From Saprospiraceae bacterium (GTDB lineage: Bacteria; Bacteroidota; Bacteroidia; Chitinophagales; Saprospiraceae): 45,179 nt of DNA. The notes below the pieces were generated by a model. It did not search any database. It had not been told where the DNA came from and saw nothing but the letters and a program-made list of their open reading frames with translations. Where the stretch lies: positions 1 to 45,179 of the forward strand of contig JAHDBF010000006.1 of the NCBI GenBank assembly GCA_020630525.1, given 5' to 3'. Positions 35,376-44,289 of this stretch are shown in pieces (the first letter of the stretch is position 1; every line of letters begins with the position of its first letter). A program made the position numbers and the translations under genes.

Positions 35376-35480
35376 GCTGTTTTAACTTATAATGCAGTTA
35401 ATTTTTTCTACTTAGGAATGAATAGTACAAAAATCAGAAACAAATATTTCAATATTCCAAAATAATCCTATATTTACGGC

Positions 35481-35540
35481 ATGATAAATAATAAGACAAA
35501 TTGGTGGTGGCAAAAACTTAACTCAGAAAAACGGGATTAA
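35481..35540 (+). CDS. trpL: trp operon leader peptide with three consecutive Trp codons (19 aa)
   Basis: ATG at 35481 opens a 20-codon frame (including stop TAA at 35538) reading MINNKTNWWWQKLNSEKRD. Codons 8-10 are TGG TGG TGG. This is the signature of ribosome-mediated attenuation: when charged tRNA-Trp is scarce the ribosome stalls at these codons and termination downstream is prevented. It lies 20 bases before the terminator stem and 75 bases before trpE. Three Trp codons in 19 are far above the normal use of this rare residue. No clear Shine-Dalgarno sequence is seen. Confidence 0.9.
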   Translation: MINNKTNWWWQKLNSEKRD

Positions 35541-35571
35541 GCTGTCATTCGCATTTGTCAAAAGCGGCTTG
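35538..35571 (+). promoter_or_regulatory. Candidate antiterminator pairing of the trp attenuator
   Basis: AAGCTG (35539-35544) can pair with CGGCTT (35565-35570), which is the left arm of the terminator stem; wobble pairs extend this slightly on both sides. A second pairing, GACAAAT in the leader coding region with ATTTGTC (35553-35559), may act as the protector helix. These pairings compete with one another and with the terminator, as expected for attenuation. The exact secondary structures are inferred by eye. Confidence 0.5.
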
Positions 35572-35598
35572 TTGGATTTCCCGGCAAGCCGCTTTTTT
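35561..35598 (+). terminator. Intrinsic terminator of the trp attenuator
   Basis: AAAGCGGCTTG (35561-35571) pairs perfectly with CAAGCCGCTTT (35585-35595). G-U and G-C pairs can extend the stem inward, and a T run (TTTTTT, 35593-35598) follows. It is placed between the Trp-codon leader and trpE, 17 bases before the trpE start, so it controls read-through into the operon rather than ending a gene. Confidence 0.92.
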
Positions 35599-35615
35599 AA
35601 TTTTAGCACGAGAAT

Positions 35616-36968
35616 ATGAATATCAAAGTACATAGTAAATCTATTATCGGAGACCTTTATACACCAGTGAGTTTGTTCCTAAAAGTCAGGCAGCAATATC
35701 ATCAAGCACTATTGCTGGAAAGTTCTGATTATAGCAGTAAAGAAAATAGTTTATCCTTTCTTTGTTTTGATCCTATAGCAAGCTTTGTTAAAAACGAAGA
35801 AGAAATTATTAGCAAAGAAAATGTGATAAATGAATTGTCAAACTTTATTGATGATATAAAAATTGAATCAGACCAACTGGGAGATAAATACAATGGTGTA
35901 TTTGGGTTTACATGCTTTGAGGCGATTCAAAATTTTGAAGATATCTCATTCAGCACAAAGAAAAAAAGAGACCACATACCAGTAATACGTTATGATTTTT
36001 ATCGATACATTTTGGTGTTTGATCATTATTACGAAAAACTATACATCATAGAAAATGTAATAAAAGGCACACAACCTAACATAGATGGAATCATTCAGAT
36101 GCTAAGTTCAAAAAATGATCAGGCTTTTAGATTTAAGGCAAAAGGAGAACAAAAACAAGGTATGTCTGATGATCGATTTAAGGAAATTGTAACCACATGT
36201 AAGCAACATTGCAAAAGAGGTGATGTTTTCCAAATCGTTCCATCAAGAAGATTTAGTCAAAAATTCCAAGGTGATGAATTTAATGTTTATCGAGCATTGA
36301 GATCAGTAAACCCAAGTCCATATCTATTTTACTTTGATTATACCGAATTCAAAATTTTTGGATCTTCACCAGAAGCACAATTGATTATCAAAGACAATGA
36401 AGCAGAGATTCATCCCATTGCTGGAACATTTAAAAGAACAGGTAATTTTGATGTAGACTTAGTCGAGGCACAAAAATTATTGGATGACCCAAAGGAAAAT
36501 GCAGAGCATGTCATGTTGGTAGACCTTGGCAGAAATGATTTATCTCGAAGTCTCAGAGATGTAAAAGTTAAAGAATATAAAGCAGTACAATTTTTTAGTC
36601 ATGTAATTCACTTGGTTTCAAAACTTACAGCCAAAGTAACTCCTGGGATAAAACCATATCAAGTGTTTGCAGACACTTTTCCTGCAGGTACATTGTCTGG
36701 CGCACCAAAACTACGTGCAATGGAAATTATTGACGAATTAGAACCTCATCATCGATCTTATTATGGTGGTGGATTAGGTGCCATATTTTTTAATGGAAAT
36801 CTTAATCACGCAATTATGATACGTTCATTTTTAAGCAAAGACAATACGCTCCATTATCAAGCAGGTGCAGGTATCGTTATTGATTCTGTAGAAGAAAAAG
36901 AATTGGCAGAAGTAAACAACAAACTTGCTGCATTGAGAAAATCACTATCAATCGCAGAAACATTTTAA
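35616..36968 (+). CDS. trpE: Anthranilate synthase component I
   Basis: TrpE converts chorismate and ammonia (from TrpG) to anthranilate, the first step of tryptophan synthesis. The 450 residues are of normal length. The N-terminal LLLES (32-36) is the Trp feedback-binding motif, so the enzyme is probably inhibited by tryptophan. The chorismate-binding domain has 'GDVFQIVPSRRF', 'GSSPEAQL', 'HPIAGTFKR', 'LVDLGRNDL', 'FPAGTLSGAPK' and 'GGGLGAIFFNG'. ATG at 35616 follows the attenuator directly. Its stop overlaps the trpG start (TAATG), so the two subunits are translationally coupled. Confidence 0.97.
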   Translation: MNIKVHSKSIIGDLYTPVSLFLKVRQQYHQALLLESSDYSSKENSLSFLCFDPIASFVKNEEEIISKENVINELSNFIDDIKIESDQLGDKYNGVFGFTCFEAIQNFEDISFSTKKKRDHIPVIRYDFYRYILVFDHYYEKLYIIENVIKGTQPNIDGIIQMLSSKNDQAFRFKAKGEQKQGMSDDRFKEIVTTCKQHCKRGDVFQIVPSRRFSQKFQGDEFNVYRALRSVNPSPYLFYFDYTEFKIFGSSPEAQLIIKDNEAEIHPIAGTFKRTGNFDVDLVEAQKLLDDPKENAEHVMLVDLGRNDLSRSLRDVKVKEYKAVQFFSHVIHLVSKLTAKVTPGIKPYQVFADTFPAGTLSGAPKLRAMEIIDELEPHHRSYYGGGLGAIFFNGNLNHAIMIRSFLSKDNTLHYQAGAGIVIDSVEEKELAEVNNKLAALRKSLSIAETF

Positions 36969-37543
36969 TGATGAAAAAAATATTAATCTTAGACAACTAC
37001 GATTCCTTCACTTATAACCTTGTACATGCAGTTTATGATGTCTTAGGAATAGAACCTGATGTAATAAGAAATGACGCTTTAAAAATTGAAGAGGTAGATA
37101 AATACGAATATATTATTTTTTCTCCAGGGCCTGGCATTCCAGATGAAGCAGGATTGTTAAAACAAATTATTAAAGCATATATTGGAAAGAAAAAAATGCT
37201 AGGTGTTTGTCTCGGTCATCAAGCGATTTATGAAGTATTGGGTGGTAGTCTAGAAAACTTAGACAAAGTCTATCATGGCATTCAGTCAGAAATAAAAATT
37301 ACTAAACCAGACTGCAAAATACTTAAAGGTTTACAATCTAGTTTTAAAGCAGGAAGATACCATTCTTGGGTAGGAACAGAAGTTACCCTTCCAAAGGAAT
37401 TGGAGATTACTTGTACAGAAAACCAAGGCCAGATTATGGGTTTTCAACATAAGACGCTACCTATCTATGGAGTACAATTTCACCCAGAATCAATTCTTAC
37501 GCCAGAGGGAAACAAAATTCTTTCTAATTTTTTAAATCTATAA
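36968..37543 (+). CDS. trpG: Anthranilate synthase component II (glutamine amidotransferase)
   Basis: TrpG releases ammonia from glutamine for TrpE. This 191-aa protein is a class I amidotransferase with DNYDSFTYNL at the N-terminus, the oxyanion-hole motif SPGPGIP, the nucleophile elbow GVCLGHQAI (Cys81) and the His/Glu pair FHPES (His172, Glu174). It is a stand-alone subunit, not fused to trpD. A second in-frame ATG three bases on is an equally possible start. It shares one base with the trpE stop and is followed by trpD after a single base. Confidence 0.97.
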   Translation: MMKKILILDNYDSFTYNLVHAVYDVLGIEPDVIRNDALKIEEVDKYEYIIFSPGPGIPDEAGLLKQIIKAYIGKKKMLGVCLGHQAIYEVLGGSLENLDKVYHGIQSEIKITKPDCKILKGLQSSFKAGRYHSWVGTEVTLPKELEITCTENQGQIMGFQHKTLPIYGVQFHPESILTPEGNKILSNFLNL

Positions 37544-37544
37544 C

Positions 37545-38540
37545 ATGAAAGACTTACTTACGCAATTATTTCAACACAATACTTTAAGCAAAGAACAGGC
37601 AAAACAGATACTTCTTGAAATTTCTGAAGGAAAACACAATGAAGTACAAGTAGCGGCATTTATGAGCGTATACTTGATGCGTAATATTTCTGTAGAAGAA
37701 TTGGCGGGGTTTAGAGCTGCATTATTAGAGTTGAGAATTCCATTGGATTTTGGAGATATAGATGCCATAGATTTATGTGGAACAGGAGGCGATGGTAAAA
37801 ACACTTTTAATATCTCAACCTTGACTTCACTCATCGTTGCAGGTGCTGGCTACAAGGTAATAAAACATGGAAATTATGGCGTATCATCAGTATGCGGTTC
37901 TTCTAATGTATTAGAATCATTGGGTTATAAATTTACAAACGATAAAGGGAAGCTGGAACAACAATTAACGGATTCTAATATATGTTTCCTCCATGCGCCA
38001 CTCTTTCATCCAGCCATGAAATTTGTTGGCCCCATAAGAAGGAGCTTAGGCGTAAAGACATTTTTTAACATGCTAGGACCATTGGTCAATCCAGCACAAC
38101 CTAACCATCAAATGACAGGCGTATTTAGCCTTCATTTACAACGATTATATCAATATCTTTTTGAAGAATCAGATACTAAATTTACCATCATATACGGCCT
38201 AAGTGGTTTTGACGAATTATCTTTAACCGACAAATCTAAAGTAATTACTAGAGAAAGTACAAATTTGATTGATGCTTCTAATTTTGGGTTAAACTATATT
38301 GACCTAAATGAAATTTCCGGTGGAGACACCATTGAAGAAGCTGCACAAATTTTCACTAAAGTATTAACCAATGAATCCACTGAAGCAAGAAAAAATGTAG
38401 TCCTAGCCAATGCCGCTTTAGCGATACAAACATTCGACAAACAAAAAAGCTTAACCGACTGTTTTAATATTGCTAAAGAAAGTCTAGAATCAAAAAGGGC
38501 GTTAGAAGGTTTTAAAAATATAATTTCACTAAGTAACTAA
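37545..38540 (+). CDS. trpD: Anthranilate phosphoribosyltransferase
   Basis: TrpD transfers phosphoribose from PRPP to anthranilate. The 331-aa chain has the glycine-rich PRPP loop CGTGGDGKNTFNIST, the anthranilate/PRPP segment 'KHGNYGVSSVCGSSNVLESLG' (seen in parts), and 'GPIRRSLGVKTFFNMLGPL'. Tyr replaces the usual Arg in KHGN(R)xxSS, a form I believe is common in Bacteroidota. The gene follows trpG by one base and abuts trpC with no spacer (TAA-ATG). Confidence 0.96.
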   Translation: MKDLLTQLFQHNTLSKEQAKQILLEISEGKHNEVQVAAFMSVYLMRNISVEELAGFRAALLELRIPLDFGDIDAIDLCGTGGDGKNTFNISTLTSLIVAGAGYKVIKHGNYGVSSVCGSSNVLESLGYKFTNDKGKLEQQLTDSNICFLHAPLFHPAMKFVGPIRRSLGVKTFFNMLGPLVNPAQPNHQMTGVFSLHLQRLYQYLFEESDTKFTIIYGLSGFDELSLTDKSKVITRESTNLIDASNFGLNYIDLNEISGGDTIEEAAQIFTKVLTNESTEARKNVVLANAALAIQTFDKQKSLTDCFNIAKESLESKRALEGFKNIISLSN

Positions 38541-39323
38541 ATGAATATCTTAGATAAAATAGTAGTTGACAAGAAAGCTTATTTGGTGGAAGCAAAAAAA
38601 GAAAAAGAATTAAACTTTTTCAAAGATCATCCGCTTGCTGAAAGAAAAACTATCTCTCTTAAAAATAAACTAAACAATCTACCTGCTGGAATAATTTCAG
38701 AATTTAAAAGAAGGTCTCCTTCTAAGCAAGATATCAATGTTACTGCAAAAGTAGAAGATATAGTTCCGCTTTATCAAAATGGTGGAGCAACCGCAATCAG
38801 TGTTCTTACAGATACTCAATATTTTCATGGAGAAACCAGTGATCTTATTGCTGCAAGAAAGTTGGTTGATATTCCACTATTGCGCAAAGATTTTATAATA
38901 GATCCTTATCAAATATATGAAGCAAAAGCTATTGGTGCAGATCTGATTTTATTGATTGCCTATTGTTTAGAAAAATCACAAGCAGAAGAGCTAACAGCTT
39001 TAGCGCATGATTTAGGTATTGAAGTATTGTATGAAATACACAATGAATCCGAGCTAGAAAAAATGCCTTCCGACATAGATATTTTAGGTGTAAATAATCG
39101 CGATCTCACAAACTTTAAAGTAGATTATAATTACGCAATTGACATCTATAAAAATCTACCAGAATCTTATTGCAAAATATCAGAAAGTGGCATCTCAAGT
39201 ATCGAGAGTTATGTTGCATCAATAAAAGCGGGATATAAAGCATGTTTAGTTGGTGAATTTTTAATGAAAGAAAATGATCCTCAAAAAACTATTCAAACTT
39301 TACTAAAAGAAGCGATCAAATGA
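38541..39323 (+). CDS. trpC: Indole-3-glycerol phosphate synthase
   Basis: TrpC closes the indole ring from CdRP with loss of CO2. The 260-aa TIM barrel shows the N-terminal catalytic IISEFKRRSPSK (Glu54, Lys56), 'ISVLTDTQYFHG', the general acid Lys in LLRKDFIIDPYQIYEAK, 'LGVNNRDLTNF' and 'ISESGISS'. It is not fused to trpF, unlike the E. coli enzyme. Its last four bases overlap the trpF start (ATGA). Confidence 0.97.
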   Translation: MNILDKIVVDKKAYLVEAKKEKELNFFKDHPLAERKTISLKNKLNNLPAGIISEFKRRSPSKQDINVTAKVEDIVPLYQNGGATAISVLTDTQYFHGETSDLIAARKLVDIPLLRKDFIIDPYQIYEAKAIGADLILLIAYCLEKSQAEELTALAHDLGIEVLYEIHNESELEKMPSDIDILGVNNRDLTNFKVDYNYAIDIYKNLPESYCKISESGISSIESYVASIKAGYKACLVGEFLMKENDPQKTIQTLLKEAIK

Positions 39324-39931
39324 AAGTAAAAGTTTGTGGTTTAATAAATCCAGAAAACGTCACTGAACTAAATTCATTGAAAATTGATTTTATAGGTTTA
39401 AATTTTTATAAACCATCTTCCAGGTTTTTAGATGAATCTAATTTAGCCTATTTTAAGCATTATAAAGAAACGAAAAAAGTAGGCGTTTTCGTAAATGAAA
39501 ATATTGACAAATTATTAATTACTGCAGAAAAATTTGCCTTAGATTATATTCAGTTACACGGCAATGAAAGTCCATCATATACAGACACCGTTAGCAATCA
39601 TTTCAAGACTATAAAAGTGTTTTCAATTTTAGAAGAAAAAGATTTTGAATCAAGTTCCGCTTACAAAAATTGTGATTATTTTTTATTTGATACGAAAACT
39701 AAAAATCATGGCGGAAGTGGTAAGAAATTTAGTTGGGAACTGCTTTCAAACTATAAAGGAGAAACCCCATTTTTACTGGCAGGAGGTATTAAGCCAAACG
39801 ATACATCAGCCATAAAGTCTATAAAACATCCTAAATTTGCAGGTATCGACATAAACTCAGGATTTGAAACAAAGCCTGGCATTAAGGATATAAACGCAAT
39901 AGAATCATTCTTAAAAGAATTAGCAATATGA
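39320..39931 (+). CDS. trpF: Phosphoribosylanthranilate isomerase
   Basis: TrpF carries out the Amadori rearrangement of phosphoribosylanthranilate. This 203-aa TIM barrel has the catalytic Cys in VKVCGL (Cys6), '[12 protein letters not shown]', 'VGVFVNE', 'IQLHGNE', the general-acid Asp in FLFDTKT, the phosphate loop 'LAGGIKP' and 'GIDINSGFE'. It overlaps trpC and trpB by four bases on either side. Confidence 0.95.
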
Positions 39932-41139
39932 ATGAGCAACAAAATAAATATCATCCAAATCAATCTGGATATTTTGGAGAATTTGGAGGAGCTTTCATTC
40001 CCGAAATGCTTCATGCCAACGTAGAAAATCTAAGAAGTAGATATGAAGAAATCATAAAAGAAGAAAGCTTCCAAAAAGAGTATAATGCATTACTTAAAGA
40101 TTATGTCGGCAGACCTACTCCACTCTACTTTGCCAAAAGATTATCGGAAGAGATCGGTGCACAGATATATTTAAAAAGAGAAGACCTTTGTCATACTGGT
40201 GCACATAAAGTAAACAATACCATCGGACAAATTTTACTAGCGCAACGACTAGGGAAAACTAGGATAATAGCAGAGACAGGAGCAGGTCAGCACGGAGTAG
40301 CAACGGCAACCGTATGCGCTTTGATGGGATTGGAATGTATCGTCTATATGGGTGAAGTAGATATCGCAAGGCAAGCACCAAACGTCCAACGAATGAAGAT
40401 GCTTGGTGCAACTGTTAGACCAGCTTTATCAGGAAGTAAGACATTAAAAGATGCCACCAACGAAGCAATCAGAGATTGGATAGACAATCCTGAAGATACG
40501 CATTACATTATTGGATCAGTAGTAGGTCCTCATCCTTATCCAGATATGGTAGCCCGTTTTCAAGCAATCATAAGCGAAGAAATGAAATGGCAATTAAAAG
40601 AAAAAACAGGTAAAGAAAATCCAGACTATATAGTTGCCTGTGTTGGTGGAGGAAGTAACGCGGCTGGTGCATTTTATCATTATCTCAATGATGAAGACGT
40701 TCAATTAGTATTGGTAGAAGCAGCAGGTGAAGGCGTTGATTCTGGGAAGTCAGCAGCTACATCCATCTTGGGTTCTCAAGGTGTTATTCACGGTAGTATG
40801 ACATTATTAATGCAAGATGAATATGGTCAGATAGTGGAACCACATTCTATTTCTGCAGGATTAGATTATCCAGGAATTGGACCGTTACATGCGCATCTTA
40901 TTAAGTCTAAACGGGCAAGCGTATATGCTGCTACTGATGCAGAAGCGATACAATCCGCATTTCACATCACGAAAATAGAAGGCATAATTCCAGCCTTAGA
41001 AACAGCGCATGCATTTGCCATTCTCCCAAAGATGAATCTTAAATCAGAAGATGTGGTAATCGTAAATTTATCTGGCAGAGGAGATAAAGATTTAAATACG
41101 TATATGCAGTTCCAACCAAACAACAAAACTGATGAATAG
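39928..41139 (+). CDS. trpB: Tryptophan synthase beta subunit
   Basis: TrpB joins indole and serine to form tryptophan, using PLP. The 403 residues are of TrpB1 type. Visible are '[15 protein letters not shown]' at the N-terminus, the PLP lysine in HTGAHKVNN (Lys94), '[14 protein letters not shown]', '[13 protein letters not shown]', the phosphate loop GGGSNAAG, and 'LSGRGDKD' near the end. The start overlaps trpF by four bases and its 3' end overlaps trpA by eight, consistent with equal synthesis of both subunits. Confidence 0.98.
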
Positions 41140-41896
41140 ACTAACCAAATTATTTAGTGAAAAGAAAAGCAATATACTTAACATATATTTTACTGCTGGT
41201 TTTCCTGAGCTAAATGATACAGGAAAAATCATCGAGACATTAGCAGAGAGCGGCGCTGATTTGATAGAGTTAGGTATGCCATATTCTGATCCATTGGCTG
41301 ATGGGACAACCATTCAAGATTCATCGAGTATTGCATTAAAGAATGGGATGGAACTTGATACTCTATTTAAACAAGTTACAGAAATCCGAAAGACAGTTGA
41401 TATTCCGATCATGCTCATGGGTTACTTTAACCAAGTTATGCAGTTTGGCGAAACTAAGTTTTTTGACAACTGCGTCAATGCAGGCATCGATGGTTTAATC
41501 ATTCCAGATTTACCTATGGATTATTATCAGATACACATCCAGTCATTACTTGAAGAGCGAGATATAAAAATGACATTTTTAGTTACTCCTCAAACTTCGG
41601 ACGAGCGAATTAAACAAGCTGATAAATTAAGTTCTGCATTTTTATACATTGTTGCAAAATCTAGTATTACTGGAAAAACTACTGACATATCCAATAATCA
41701 ATTAAACTATTTTGATAGATTGAAAGCGATGAATCTTACTGCACCGCAATTGATAGGATTTGGGATTCATGATAAAACTTCATTCGATCAAGCTTGTAAA
41801 TTTGCCAATGGAGCTATCATTGGAAGTGAGTTTATAAGACTACTTAAAAGAGAAGGACTTAGTGGTATAAAAGAATTTATAGAAAGTATAAAATGA
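41132..41896 (+). CDS. trpA: Tryptophan synthase alpha subunit
   Basis: TrpA splits indole-3-glycerol phosphate into indole, which is channelled to TrpB. This 254-aa TIM barrel has '[12 protein letters not shown]', the catalytic Glu and Asp in [15 protein letters not shown] (Glu46 and Asp57, matching E. coli Glu49 and Asp60), 'LIIPDLPM', and 'IGFGIHDK'. It starts eight bases inside trpB and ends in an ATGA overlap with the topoisomerase gene. Confidence 0.97.
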
Positions 41897-44289
41897 AAGT
41901 TTGTATTGCAGAAAAACCTTCCGTAGCTAGAGAAATTGCTTTTGTAATCGGAGCTACCAAAAGAAACGATGGATTCTTTGAAGGAAATGGCTATGCTGTT
42001 ACTTGGACGTTTGGTCATTTTTGTAGTTTATACAACCCACATGAATACAAGCCAGAATGGAAACGCTGGGACTTAAGGCAACTCCCCATGTTGCCAGAAA
42101 AATTCCAAACAAGATTGATAGATGACAAAGGCGTAAAAAAACAGTTTTCTGCTATTAAAAAACTATTTAAAAAAGCAACGGTCGTAATTAATTGCGGTGA
42201 TGCAGGTCAAGAAGGAGAACTGATCCAACGTTGGGTTTTAAACGAAGCTAAATACAAAGGACCAGTGCAGCGACTTTGGATTTCATCTCTGACCAGGGAA
42301 GCAGTGGCAGAAGGATTTAAAAATTTAAGGCCTGCTAGTGAATTTGATAGATTATATTTTGCAGGTAGTGCGAGGGCGATTGGAGATTGGCTCCTAGGCA
42401 TGAATGCGACAAGATTGTACACAGTAAAATATGGCGGTGGAAAAACAGTTTTATCGATTGGACGTGTACAGACTCCTACATTAACGATGCTGGTAAAACG
42501 TCACAAAGAGATTGAATCTTTTGTCTCTACCCCATTCTGGGAACTGTATGCAAACTATCGTGATACGGATTTCAAATATGAAAAAAGTAGATTTACCGAT
42601 AAAGAAGAAGGAGAACAAATTTTACAAAAAATTAAAGATAAACCACTAAGTGTTCTTACAATTGTTAAGAAGAACGGAAAAGAGTATGCGCCCAAACTTT
42701 TTGACCTTACAGGATTACAAGTTAACTGCAATAAACGTTTTGGATTTACTGCTGACCAAACTTTAAAGATTGCCCAAAAGCTATACGAACAAAAAATAAT
42801 AAGTTACCCAAGAGTAGATACCACCTTTTTACCTAATGATGTTTATCCTAAGGTAAAAGGCATTCTCCAAAAAATAAATGGTTATGACGAGCATACTAGA
42901 TTATTGCTTAGTAAACCCATAAAAAAATCTAAGCGCGTATTTAATGACAAAAAAGTAACGGACCACCATGCGATAATCCCTACTGGAGTTAATGGAAATT
43001 TATCTGGTGATTTTTACAAAGTGTATGACGCTATAGTAAGGAGGTTTTTAGCAAATTTTTATCCTGAATGTGAAGTAGCAAACACCACTGTTAATGCAGA
43101 AATAAACGCATTAAAGTTTACAACAAAAGGAAAAGAAATATTGTCCGAAGGATGGAGAGTATTATATCCAAAACAAAAGAGCAACAAACAAGATAATGAC
43201 AGAGATAATGTCAAAATTTTGCCTGCATTTACAGAAGGAGAATCAGGTCCGCACAATCCTAAGCTCATAGAAAAACAAACCAAACCACCTCAATACTATA
43301 CAGAAGCAACACTACTGAGAGCAATGGAAACCGCAGGAAAAACGGTAGAAAAAGAAGAGCTACGGGATCTCATGAAAGAAAATGGAATCGGTCGACCTTC
43401 TACACGTGCAAGCATCATCGAGACTTTATTTAAAAGAACATACGCCTACCGTTCTAAAAAACTGGTGTTGGCTTCTGACTTAGGAATTCAACTTATTGAT
43501 ACAATAAGTAACCCATTGCTAAAGTCTGTCGAACTGACTGGGGCATGGGAAAAGAAAATTAGACAAATAGAATCTGGAGAATATAACCCAGCAGTGTTCA
43601 TCAAAGAAATGAAACAGATGACGCAAACAATTGTTAATGAAGTCAAGTCATCAAATGCGCCTTCTAAAATTGATCTCTCGGCAATACCAGACCGATATGC
43701 ATCAAAAAAATCAAAGTATAACAAAAAGAAAAACGCATATCCAAAAACAAAAAATACAACAACTAAATCAAATACTGTAACCAAGAAAGCACATTCATCT
43801 AAAAGTAAAACTGATGAAAATAATGGATGCCCGAAGTGTAAAAATGGGCGTATCATAAAAGGTAAAGCCGCATATGGATGTAGCAATTGGAAAACGGGTT
43901 GCGAACTAAGAATTCCATTTACATTCTTAAAAAAGAAAATCTCTGACAATCAAATCAAAAGGCTAATCAATAAAGGTTGTACCGTTAACCTAAAAGGATT
44001 TTCTTATCAAAACCAAAAAGCAGAAGGGCTTATTAGATTTGACGATAACTATGCATTGGTATTTGAACCAAAACGAACAACACAGGAAGTTCCAAAATCT
44101 ACAAACTCAAATACGCTAATTTGTCCTAAATGTAAAAAAGGAAATATCATCAAAGGCAACACTGCATACGGTTGTACCAACTGGAAAACAGGTTGTAATT
44201 TTACCTATGCTTTTACGGATATTAGAATCAAGGCAAATGGTAGAACATTAACTAAGGCATTGGTAAAGGAAATTATTTATGGAAAGTAG
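41893..44289 (+). CDS. topB: DNA topoisomerase III (type IA) with C-terminal zinc-ribbon repeats
   Basis: A type IA topoisomerase of 798 aa that cuts and rejoins one DNA strand through a 5'-phosphotyrosine. The N-terminal Toprim domain starts [12 protein letters not shown] (Glu7) and holds 'VINCGDAGQEGELIQ' (Asp103, with Gly105 where E. coli TopB has its second Asp). The active-site Tyr305 lies in IISYPRVDTTFL; 'DHHAIIPTG' and 'GIGRPSTRASIIETL' follow. After a Lys/Ser/Thr-rich linker (about 605-645) come two copies of a zinc-ribbon-like unit (CPKCK-(N/K)-G-(R/N)-IIKG...GC(S/T)NWKTGC) at about 646-675 and about 741-768. The start overlaps trpA by four bases, so it is read as the last cistron of the trp operon, although the function is unrelated. 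Confidence 0.94.
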   Translation: MKVCIAEKPSVAREIAFVIGATKRNDGFFEGNGYAVTWTFGHFCSLYNPHEYKPEWKRWDLRQLPMLPEKFQTRLIDDKGVKKQFSAIKKLFKKATVVINCGDAGQEGELIQRWVLNEAKYKGPVQRLWISSLTREAVAEGFKNLRPASEFDRLYFAGSARAIGDWLLGMNATRLYTVKYGGGKTVLSIGRVQTPTLTMLVKRHKEIESFVSTPFWELYANYRDTDFKYEKSRFTDKEEGEQILQKIKDKPLSVLTIVKKNGKEYAPKLFDLTGLQVNCNKRFGFTADQTLKIAQKLYEQKIISYPRVDTTFLPNDVYPKVKGILQKINGYDEHTRLLLSKPIKKSKRVFNDKKVTDHHAIIPTGVNGNLSGDFYKVYDAIVRRFLANFYPECEVANTTVNAEINALKFTTKGKEILSEGWRVLYPKQKSNKQDNDRDNVKILPAFTEGESGPHNPKLIEKQTKPPQYYTEATLLRAMETAGKTVEKEELRDLMKENGIGRPSTRASIIETLFKRTYAYRSKKLVLASDLGIQLIDTISNPLLKSVELTGAWEKKIRQIESGEYNPAVFIKEMKQMTQTIVNEVKSSNAPSKIDLSAIPDRYASKKSKYNKKKNAYPKTKNTTTKSNTVTKKAHSSKSKTDENNGCPKCKNGRIIKGKAAYGCSNWKTGCELRIPFTFLKKKISDNQIKRLINKGCTVNLKGFSYQNQKAEGLIRFDDNYALVFEPKRTTQEVPKSTNSNTLICPKCKKGNIIKGNTAYGCTNWKTGCNFTYAFTDIRIKANGRTLTKALVKEIIYGK

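Follow-up and report, generated by a model that had tools for sequence, protein, structure and literature searches.

The window, a stretch of 45,179 nucleotides from a Saprospiraceae bacterium (contig JAHDBF010000006.1), contains a putative sensor region upstream of trpE which, according to its sequence and ORF list, comprises a 19-codon ORF with three tandem TGG codons and a strong terminator, followed by trpEGDCFBA. The features of this region are listed below.

35469-35476, forward strand: promoter-like -7 box TATATTTA, with one mismatch to the consensus TAnnTTTG, 4 nt 5' of the leader ATG
35481-35540, forward strand: leader peptide ORF of 19 codons encoding MINNKTNWWWQKLNSEKRD, with ATG at 35481 and stop codon at 35538-35540
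35495-35501, forward strand: 5' strand of pairing P1, GACAAAT, just 5' of the Trp codons, pairing with 35553-35559
35502-35510, forward strand: TGG TGG TGG, the inferred sensor from the sequence; at least three Trp in a row at 84 of 100 loci
35517-35524, forward strand: 5' strand of pairing P2, CTTAACTC, pairing with 35533-35541 (35536 bulged) and masking the tail
35532-35536, forward strand: antiterminator tail CGGGA, pairing with 35579-35583 (P 0.87-0.99 with the ribosome stalled at Trp)
35538-35545, forward strand: stretch containing the AAGCTG of an earlier note, pairing with 35564-35571 nested in the tail helix (P 0.5-0.8); specific to the window
35553-35559, forward strand: 3' strand of P1, ATTTGTC, 3' of the stop codon, from folding and the P1 swap test
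35560-35598, forward strand: intrinsic terminator from sequence and folding, a 16-bp hairpin (35560-35596) with a T-run (35593-35598, T6)
35579-35583, forward strand: tail target UCCCG, the end of the terminator loop and the beginning of the 3' arm
35616-41896, forward strand: trpE, trpG, trpD, trpC, trpF, trpB and trpA, from ORFs and NCBIfam matches

The trpE ORF starts with the ATG at 35616. Among the seven genes, which extend to 41896, trpD, trpB, trpA and the trpG/pabA subfamily reached the NCBI cut-off in an NCBIfam search, and trpE, trpC and trpF each had their own model as best match but below the cut-off. The topoisomerase III gene topB (41893-44289) shares 4 nt with the end of trpA and possibly belongs to the trp transcript.

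The earlier note, written from the letters of the window, had described a leader with three Trp codons and a terminator stem with a T run, and both were confirmed at the positions listed above. It had also proposed RNA folding of 35470-35620: this segment folds at -48.2 kcal/mol (z -5.7), a stability attained by 0/200 shuffles, and the inner 35 nt of the terminator give -24.5 kcal/mol.

A mini-ORF containing WW was found upstream of trpE at 100 of 110 Bacteroidota loci, compared with 3/110 when the same stretches were read on the opposite strand. These loci comprise 30 from the window's genome and its relatives, obtained by a TrpE search of 60 genomes including the window's own, and 80 named Bacteroidota loci (the best 80 of 587), with weaker, mostly pabB-like TrpE matches left out of the conservation counts. 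The mini-ORF was present at 29 of the 30 loci from the TrpE search, the exception (L028) having only 167 nt of upstream sequence, at all six trpE upstreams of the window's genus (own genome and five relatives; L002-L006 and L152), and at 5/5 further trpE upstreams from the same 60 genomes. Non-conservation of the Trp codons in relatives, named beforehand in the earlier note as an observation that would speak against its reading, was thus not seen, with two members of the genus (L003 and L005) encoding CWW where the others have WWW. The ten misses comprise loci with short upstream sequence (L028, L044 and L048), a leader reading WHWHH (L034), mini-ORFs with a single Trp (L051 and L066), and loci at which, read by eye, the end of trpB apparently lies directly upstream (L079 and L095); sequence inspection upstream of trpE revealed no mini-ORF at L093 and L112. 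The single-Trp loci, both from Cytophagaceae MAGs, have a mini-ORF reading GWQG followed by a terminator-like hairpin upstream of trpE, and perhaps represent a decayed or less sensitive attenuator. The leaders are followed by a hairpin before T-rich sequence in 25/29 cases by a strict rule and in 100/100 by a permissive one. TrpE likeness between loci (for example 84% for L011 and L076 and 78% for L014 and L103) suggests that the window's family is the Saprospiraceae, even though the window's own TrpE shows a likeness of only about 54% to its nearest neighbour among the named loci.

When the leader ends were read beside the hairpins, the sequence around the stop codon was found to be complementary to the terminator loop and the first bases of the 3' arm, for example in L013 (CCGAGUGA with UCACUCGG), in L006 from the window's genus (UAGGAAUU with AAUUCCUA), and in many flavobacterial loci (GUCGUGA with UCACGAC). 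This tail:apex pairing was scored as the best ungapped helix that the segment 3' of the Trp codons can form with the loop ±5 nt. Across 100 loci, own pairs had a mean of -12.17 kcal/mol versus -8.46 kcal/mol for swapped pairs (z -14.9, 0/5000 permutations); the same swap test gave z -7.5 for 29 near relatives and z -13.9 for 77 loci with distinct targets, and was weak inside the genus (237/5000 permutations, n=5). Against shuffled tails, z was -25.4 for all loci, -9.8 for near relatives and -4.8 for the genus, where the helix measures 5-8 bp in all five members tested and is shortest, at 5 bp, in the window. The tail is directed at the loop and 3' arm at 69 of the 100 loci, at the 5' arm at 12, at the loop at 8 and elsewhere at 11. 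With the loop ±5 nt as target, own pairs came first, alone or tied, at 13/100 loci (median rank 0.11), since related loci have targets in common. The same restriction masks pairing with the lower 5' arm, which seems to be in use at several Mucilaginibacter and Chitinophagaceae loci; a wider test, in which the target was the entire hairpin and the tail still included the Trp codons, gave z -11.7 with own pairs in the top 5% at 18/100 loci.

A MAFFT alignment was used to follow the pairing column by column in 14 loci, hand-picked for a common tail register from 45 loci themselves hand-picked from the 100, with the window's genus left out. Eight tail:apex pairs were standard in 92.0% of cells, falling to 28.6-49.1% on sliding by 1-3 positions. 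There were 12 cells with double changes, compared with 3.7 (sd 2.2) in shuffles that ignore kinship (0/500), and the covariation score was 0.408 versus 0.282 in shuffles of the same kind (0/500). Cruder measures on the 14 loci were unremarkable, with 4 pairs showing a double change (reached by 49/500 shuffles) and 10 pair types (356/500). In the alignment of all 45 loci, tail registers differ between orders and several tails are misplaced (e.g. L006 and L007); the alignment of the five genus members was judged by eye only. On this comparative evidence, the conserved antiterminator appears to be the pairing of the leader tail with the terminator loop and the start of the 3' arm, with compensatory changes behind it.

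The position of the tail relative to the ribosome is also constrained. At the 69 loci with a loop and 3'-arm target, the tail begins 23-36 nt past the start of the first Trp codon, and it ends at most 12 nt from the stop codon at 66/69 of them. If a stalled ribosome is assumed to reach 14 nt beyond the first base of its A-site codon, the tail would lie beyond a ribosome stalled at the first Trp codon, and its end is near enough to the stop codon that a ribosome which has finished the leader should cover it.

Two further pairings were examined by the swap test. P1, which joins the strand before the Trp codons to the post-stop strand, was stronger in own than in swapped combinations (z -10.5, n=93; z -8.4 in 27 near relatives), and pairing of the Trp codons themselves with the post-stop strand gave z -3.4 (n=93) and 0.0 in the near relatives (n=27). 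P2, which joins the segment after the Trp codons to the tail, gave z -6.8 (n=93) and was weak in near relatives (z -1.7, 142/3000, n=27); in folding of the window with no ribosome, P2 forms and hides the tail. The post-stop strand with the terminator 5' arm gave z 0.0 (n=93).

This last pairing had been put forward as the antiterminator in the earlier note, as AAGCTG (35539-35544) against CGGCTT (35565-35570). It would correspond to a classic attenuator of the E. coli type, in which the post-stop strand and the 5' arm do the work and the tail:loop match is incidental. Both motifs are present and able to pair: in the Trp-stalled state of the window, the AAGCTG stretch (35538-35545 with 35564-35571) folds together with and nested in CGGGA:UCCCG (P 0.5-0.8), and when the entire hairpin serves as target AAGCTG/CGGCTT ranks first (-12.0), ahead of CGGGA/UCCCG, which scores -10.8 in the restricted test. 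The pairing of the post-stop strand with the 5' arm also shows a mild excess over shuffles in 29 near relatives (z -2.4) and in the genus (z -1.8, n=5), and most His leaders of the phylum aim at the 5' arm (17/29). Over 100 loci, however, it is no better than shuffled (z -0.2), and in the genus alignment AAGCTG is limited to the window, L006 having AGCT there, whereas the tail:apex helix is kept in all five genus members tested and covaries strongly. The shuffle test over 100 loci and the genus alignment speak against AAGCTG/CGGCTT as a conserved antiterminator; it is at most a local addition, and the E. coli-type arrangement is considered unlikely for this locus.

The 5' arm itself may nonetheless contribute to antitermination. 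The swap test is blunt for this arm because it hardly varies, the tail with the 5' arm giving z -1.9, and in the folding model described below the 5' arm likewise pairs with upstream sequence (mean 0.99), with pairing of the loop and 3' arm higher at just 41/100 loci. The terminator stem GGCUUG/CAAGCC (35566-35573 and 35583-35590 in the window) is near-invariant in the 45 aligned loci, which span several orders; this is unexpected, since the two arms of a terminator stem can covary freely, and by the shuffle test upstream pairing of the 5' arm offers no explanation.

The alternative states were compared in a model that folds only the RNA outside the ribosome and the polymerase, the standard setting exposing the first 5 nt of the 3' arm. 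For 100 loci, the tail side and the terminator were at 0.86 and 0.10 with a stall at the first Trp codon, at 0.04 and 0.91 with the ribosome at the stop codon, and at 0.26 and 0.68 with no ribosome; in controls, the tail side was at 0.31 with the upstream sequence shuffled and at 0.41 with it swapped. For the window, tail side and terminator were at 0.98 and 0.01 in the stalled state and at 0.00 and 0.98 at the stop codon. A mutually exclusive antiterminator freed by a Trp stall was thus found in silico. With 8 nt of the 3' arm out, the tail side was ahead at 33/100 loci for a stall at the first Trp codon and at 58/100 for a stall at the last; with 10 nt out, the corresponding counts were 10/93 and 21/93. 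In the model, the terminator therefore wins once most of the 3' arm has emerged, so that capture by the tail must act early, at hairpin nucleation, or persist kinetically. In a study of a riboswitch, terminator nucleation was placed near the apical loop once there is room for about 4 base pairs outside the polymerase (PMC10687018). The E. coli trpL control (NC_000913.3) gave the 5'-arm antiterminator in the stalled state (P 1.00, loop and 3' arm 0.03) and the terminator at the stop codon, and turned to the terminator at the same point (0.98 at 8 nt out). Support for the three-state switch and its kinetic timing comes from this model.

The tail:apex pairing could also be a loop-strand pseudoknot that coexists with the lower stem of the terminator and makes termination stronger or sets its timing. 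The tail occupies only the loop and the top of the 3' arm, leaving the lower stem free, and in the window the complete terminator is more stable than the tail helix (-24.5 versus -10.8); pseudoknots that combine the tail helix with the lower stem are beyond the scoring of the folding program. The position of the tail argues against this role, since a finished ribosome should cover it when tryptophan is plentiful and termination is wanted, and it is free when read-through is wanted, and we regard a pseudoknot favoring termination as improbable.

It is more probable that the tail acts against termination, in the following manner. RNA polymerase would start at or beside the leader ATG, with a ribosome following. 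When Trp-tRNA is ample, the ribosome would pass the three Trp codons and halt at 35538, where its body would cover the tail (35532-35536), so that the terminator folds unhindered and transcription stops short of trpE. Under a shortage of Trp-tRNA, the ribosome would stall on the Trp codons and open P1, a stall at the third Trp codon additionally covering part of the 5' strand of P2; with P1 broken and the 5' strand of P2 partly covered, the tail, whose first base lies 30 nt past the start of the first Trp codon, would thus be exposed. The tail would then capture the terminator loop and the first 3'-arm bases as the polymerase releases them, and the hairpin could not nucleate at its tip during passage of the polymerase over the T-run, allowing trpE to be transcribed.

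Control by a TRAP-like or TrpR-like protein or by a T-box, with the leader peptide an accident, was dropped as very improbable: nothing was found in its favor, profile searches of the 220-contig genome assembly gave no match to TRAP (PF02081) or TrpR (PF01371), a covariance search gave no match to the T-box RF00230 in the genome and none at the gathering score in the window, and the leader and its pairings are kept across the phylum. Ribosome-mediated attenuation at this trp operon, as the earlier note had proposed, is therefore well supported, given the Trp codons kept in relatives and the lack of TRAP, TrpR and T-box matches in the genome. Comparison of sequences establishes the leader, the terminator, P1 and the tail:apex pairing; the dependence on tryptophan, the transcript start and the ribosome edges are what we infer from them. 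Most likely, the region is a tryptophan-sensing, ribosome-mediated transcription attenuator with a tail:apex antiterminator. A broader reading, which we hold with somewhat less assurance yet still favor, is that such "apex capture" operates across much of the Bacteroidota, with a strand at the stop codon seizing the emerging loop and 3'-arm bases and winning nucleation rather than the whole stem, and that some lineages, including this genus, couple it with a leaderless or nearly leaderless mRNA that loads the ribosome as the ATG emerges.

The function is that of an ordinary Trp attenuator of a kind known in the phylum, whereas the antiterminator differs from the textbook one. Attenuators in Bacteroidetes/Chlorobi are reportedly also mentioned by Vitreschak and colleagues (2004). 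The earlier note had valued the locus as a clear case in a group outside the best-known ones, but trp attenuation in Bacteroidota was already known (RF01692; PMC2864571, PMC6414381, PMC9723704). Bacteroid-trp is listed in Weinberg 2010 (PMC2864571) and has been reported from F. psychrophilum (PMC6414381), and strong clues for leader-peptide attenuation at amino-acid operons have been described in the latter species (PMC9723704). Like the window, RF01692 (Bacteroid-trp) has a leader with tandem UGG codons 5' of trp genes in Bacteroidetes, and a stem linking the Trp-codon region to a downstream strand, which is post-stop in the window. By our reading of its alignment, the model ends at GGCUUGUC, the terminator 5' arm; the loop, the 3' arm and the tail:apex pairing therefore fall outside it. 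No Rfam family reached its gathering score in the window. At a relaxed threshold, RF01692 matched 35461-35573 with 21.6 bits (E 5.7), below the 49-bit gathering cut-off, and the other relaxed-threshold matches were taken as chance. RF01692 exceeded the cut-off in 1 of 60 relatives, under stricter filters that lose some weak matches, and recognized 14/20 mostly flavobacterial loci and 1/20 others. All 14 matched loci belong to the class whose tail pairs with the loop and 3' arm, and locus L007, from a genome in the window's family, combines 49.2 bits to RF01692 with the same pairing, providing continuity with accepted members. No account of the tail:apex pairing was found in the mainly open-access literature covered. 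The results turn an RNA family known at the level of a table entry into a mechanism that can be put to the test in trp operons throughout a large phylum, among them those of lineages missed by the current model.

E. coli trpL shares with the window a leader peptide with Trp codons, alternative hairpins and a terminator before trpE, and resembles the Bacteroidota set in the model in its three states and late turn to the terminator. It differs in that its CGGGC pairs with the 5' arm, whereas the conserved partner in Bacteroidota is the loop and 3' arm; the window in turn lacks a Shine-Dalgarno-like site and possibly a 5' UTR. An antiterminator aimed at the tip of the terminator and not at its 5' arm would bear on the kinetic decision of terminator folding. 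His leaders were sought by permissive rules upstream of hisG in 38 of 86 hisG matches (L113-L150), the genome search having given no hisG match in the window's genome; a His run was found at 30/38 loci and a hairpin after it at 29/38, several of which are doubtful (e.g. L145, L147 and L148). As in the trp leaders, complementarity between tail and terminator tip exceeded that of swapped pairs (z -6.3, n=29), but the target was the 5' arm and loop at 17/29 loci and the loop and 3' arm at 4/29, in contrast to the 69/100 trp leaders directed at the loop and 3' arm.

Translation in this group had been said in the earlier note not to rely on strong Shine-Dalgarno sites, and the leaders fit this view: an SD-like tetramer occurs in 2 of 100, and the window's leader is without one. 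In F. johnsoniae, where the TAnnTTTG box occupies -12 to -5, transcription starts 4-5 nt downstream of it (PMC6847099); because of this distance, the TSS in the window is predicted at about 35481-35482, giving a nearly leaderless mRNA. A TAnnTTTG box was present at most 80 nt upstream of the leader ATG at 62 of 100 loci, compared with a mean of 6.1 in shuffles. With the last ATG before the Trp run used as leader ATG, the box-ATG spacing was at most 5 nt in 12 of these 62, at most 8 nt in 26 and at most 11 nt in 29; a spacing of 4-5 nt was observed for 12/62 exact-box leaders. Published shares of short 5' UTRs are 13% in F. johnsoniae (at most 10 nt; PMC6847099) and about 3.7% in B. thetaiotaomicron (under 10 nt; PMC7366714), with 5.5% leaderless in F. 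psychrophilum (PMC9723704), and the comparison with trp leaders is only suggestive, as the published counts refer to genes with mapped or predicted TSSs. The locus also raises the question of how attenuation is timed where initiation does not use Shine-Dalgarno sites, possibly via a transcript start at the AUG. Within the genus, L004, L005 and L006 have an exact box at the 4-nt spacing of the window and L003 is without one; L152, read by eye, shares both box and spacing if an upstream in-frame ATG is taken as the start of its leader.
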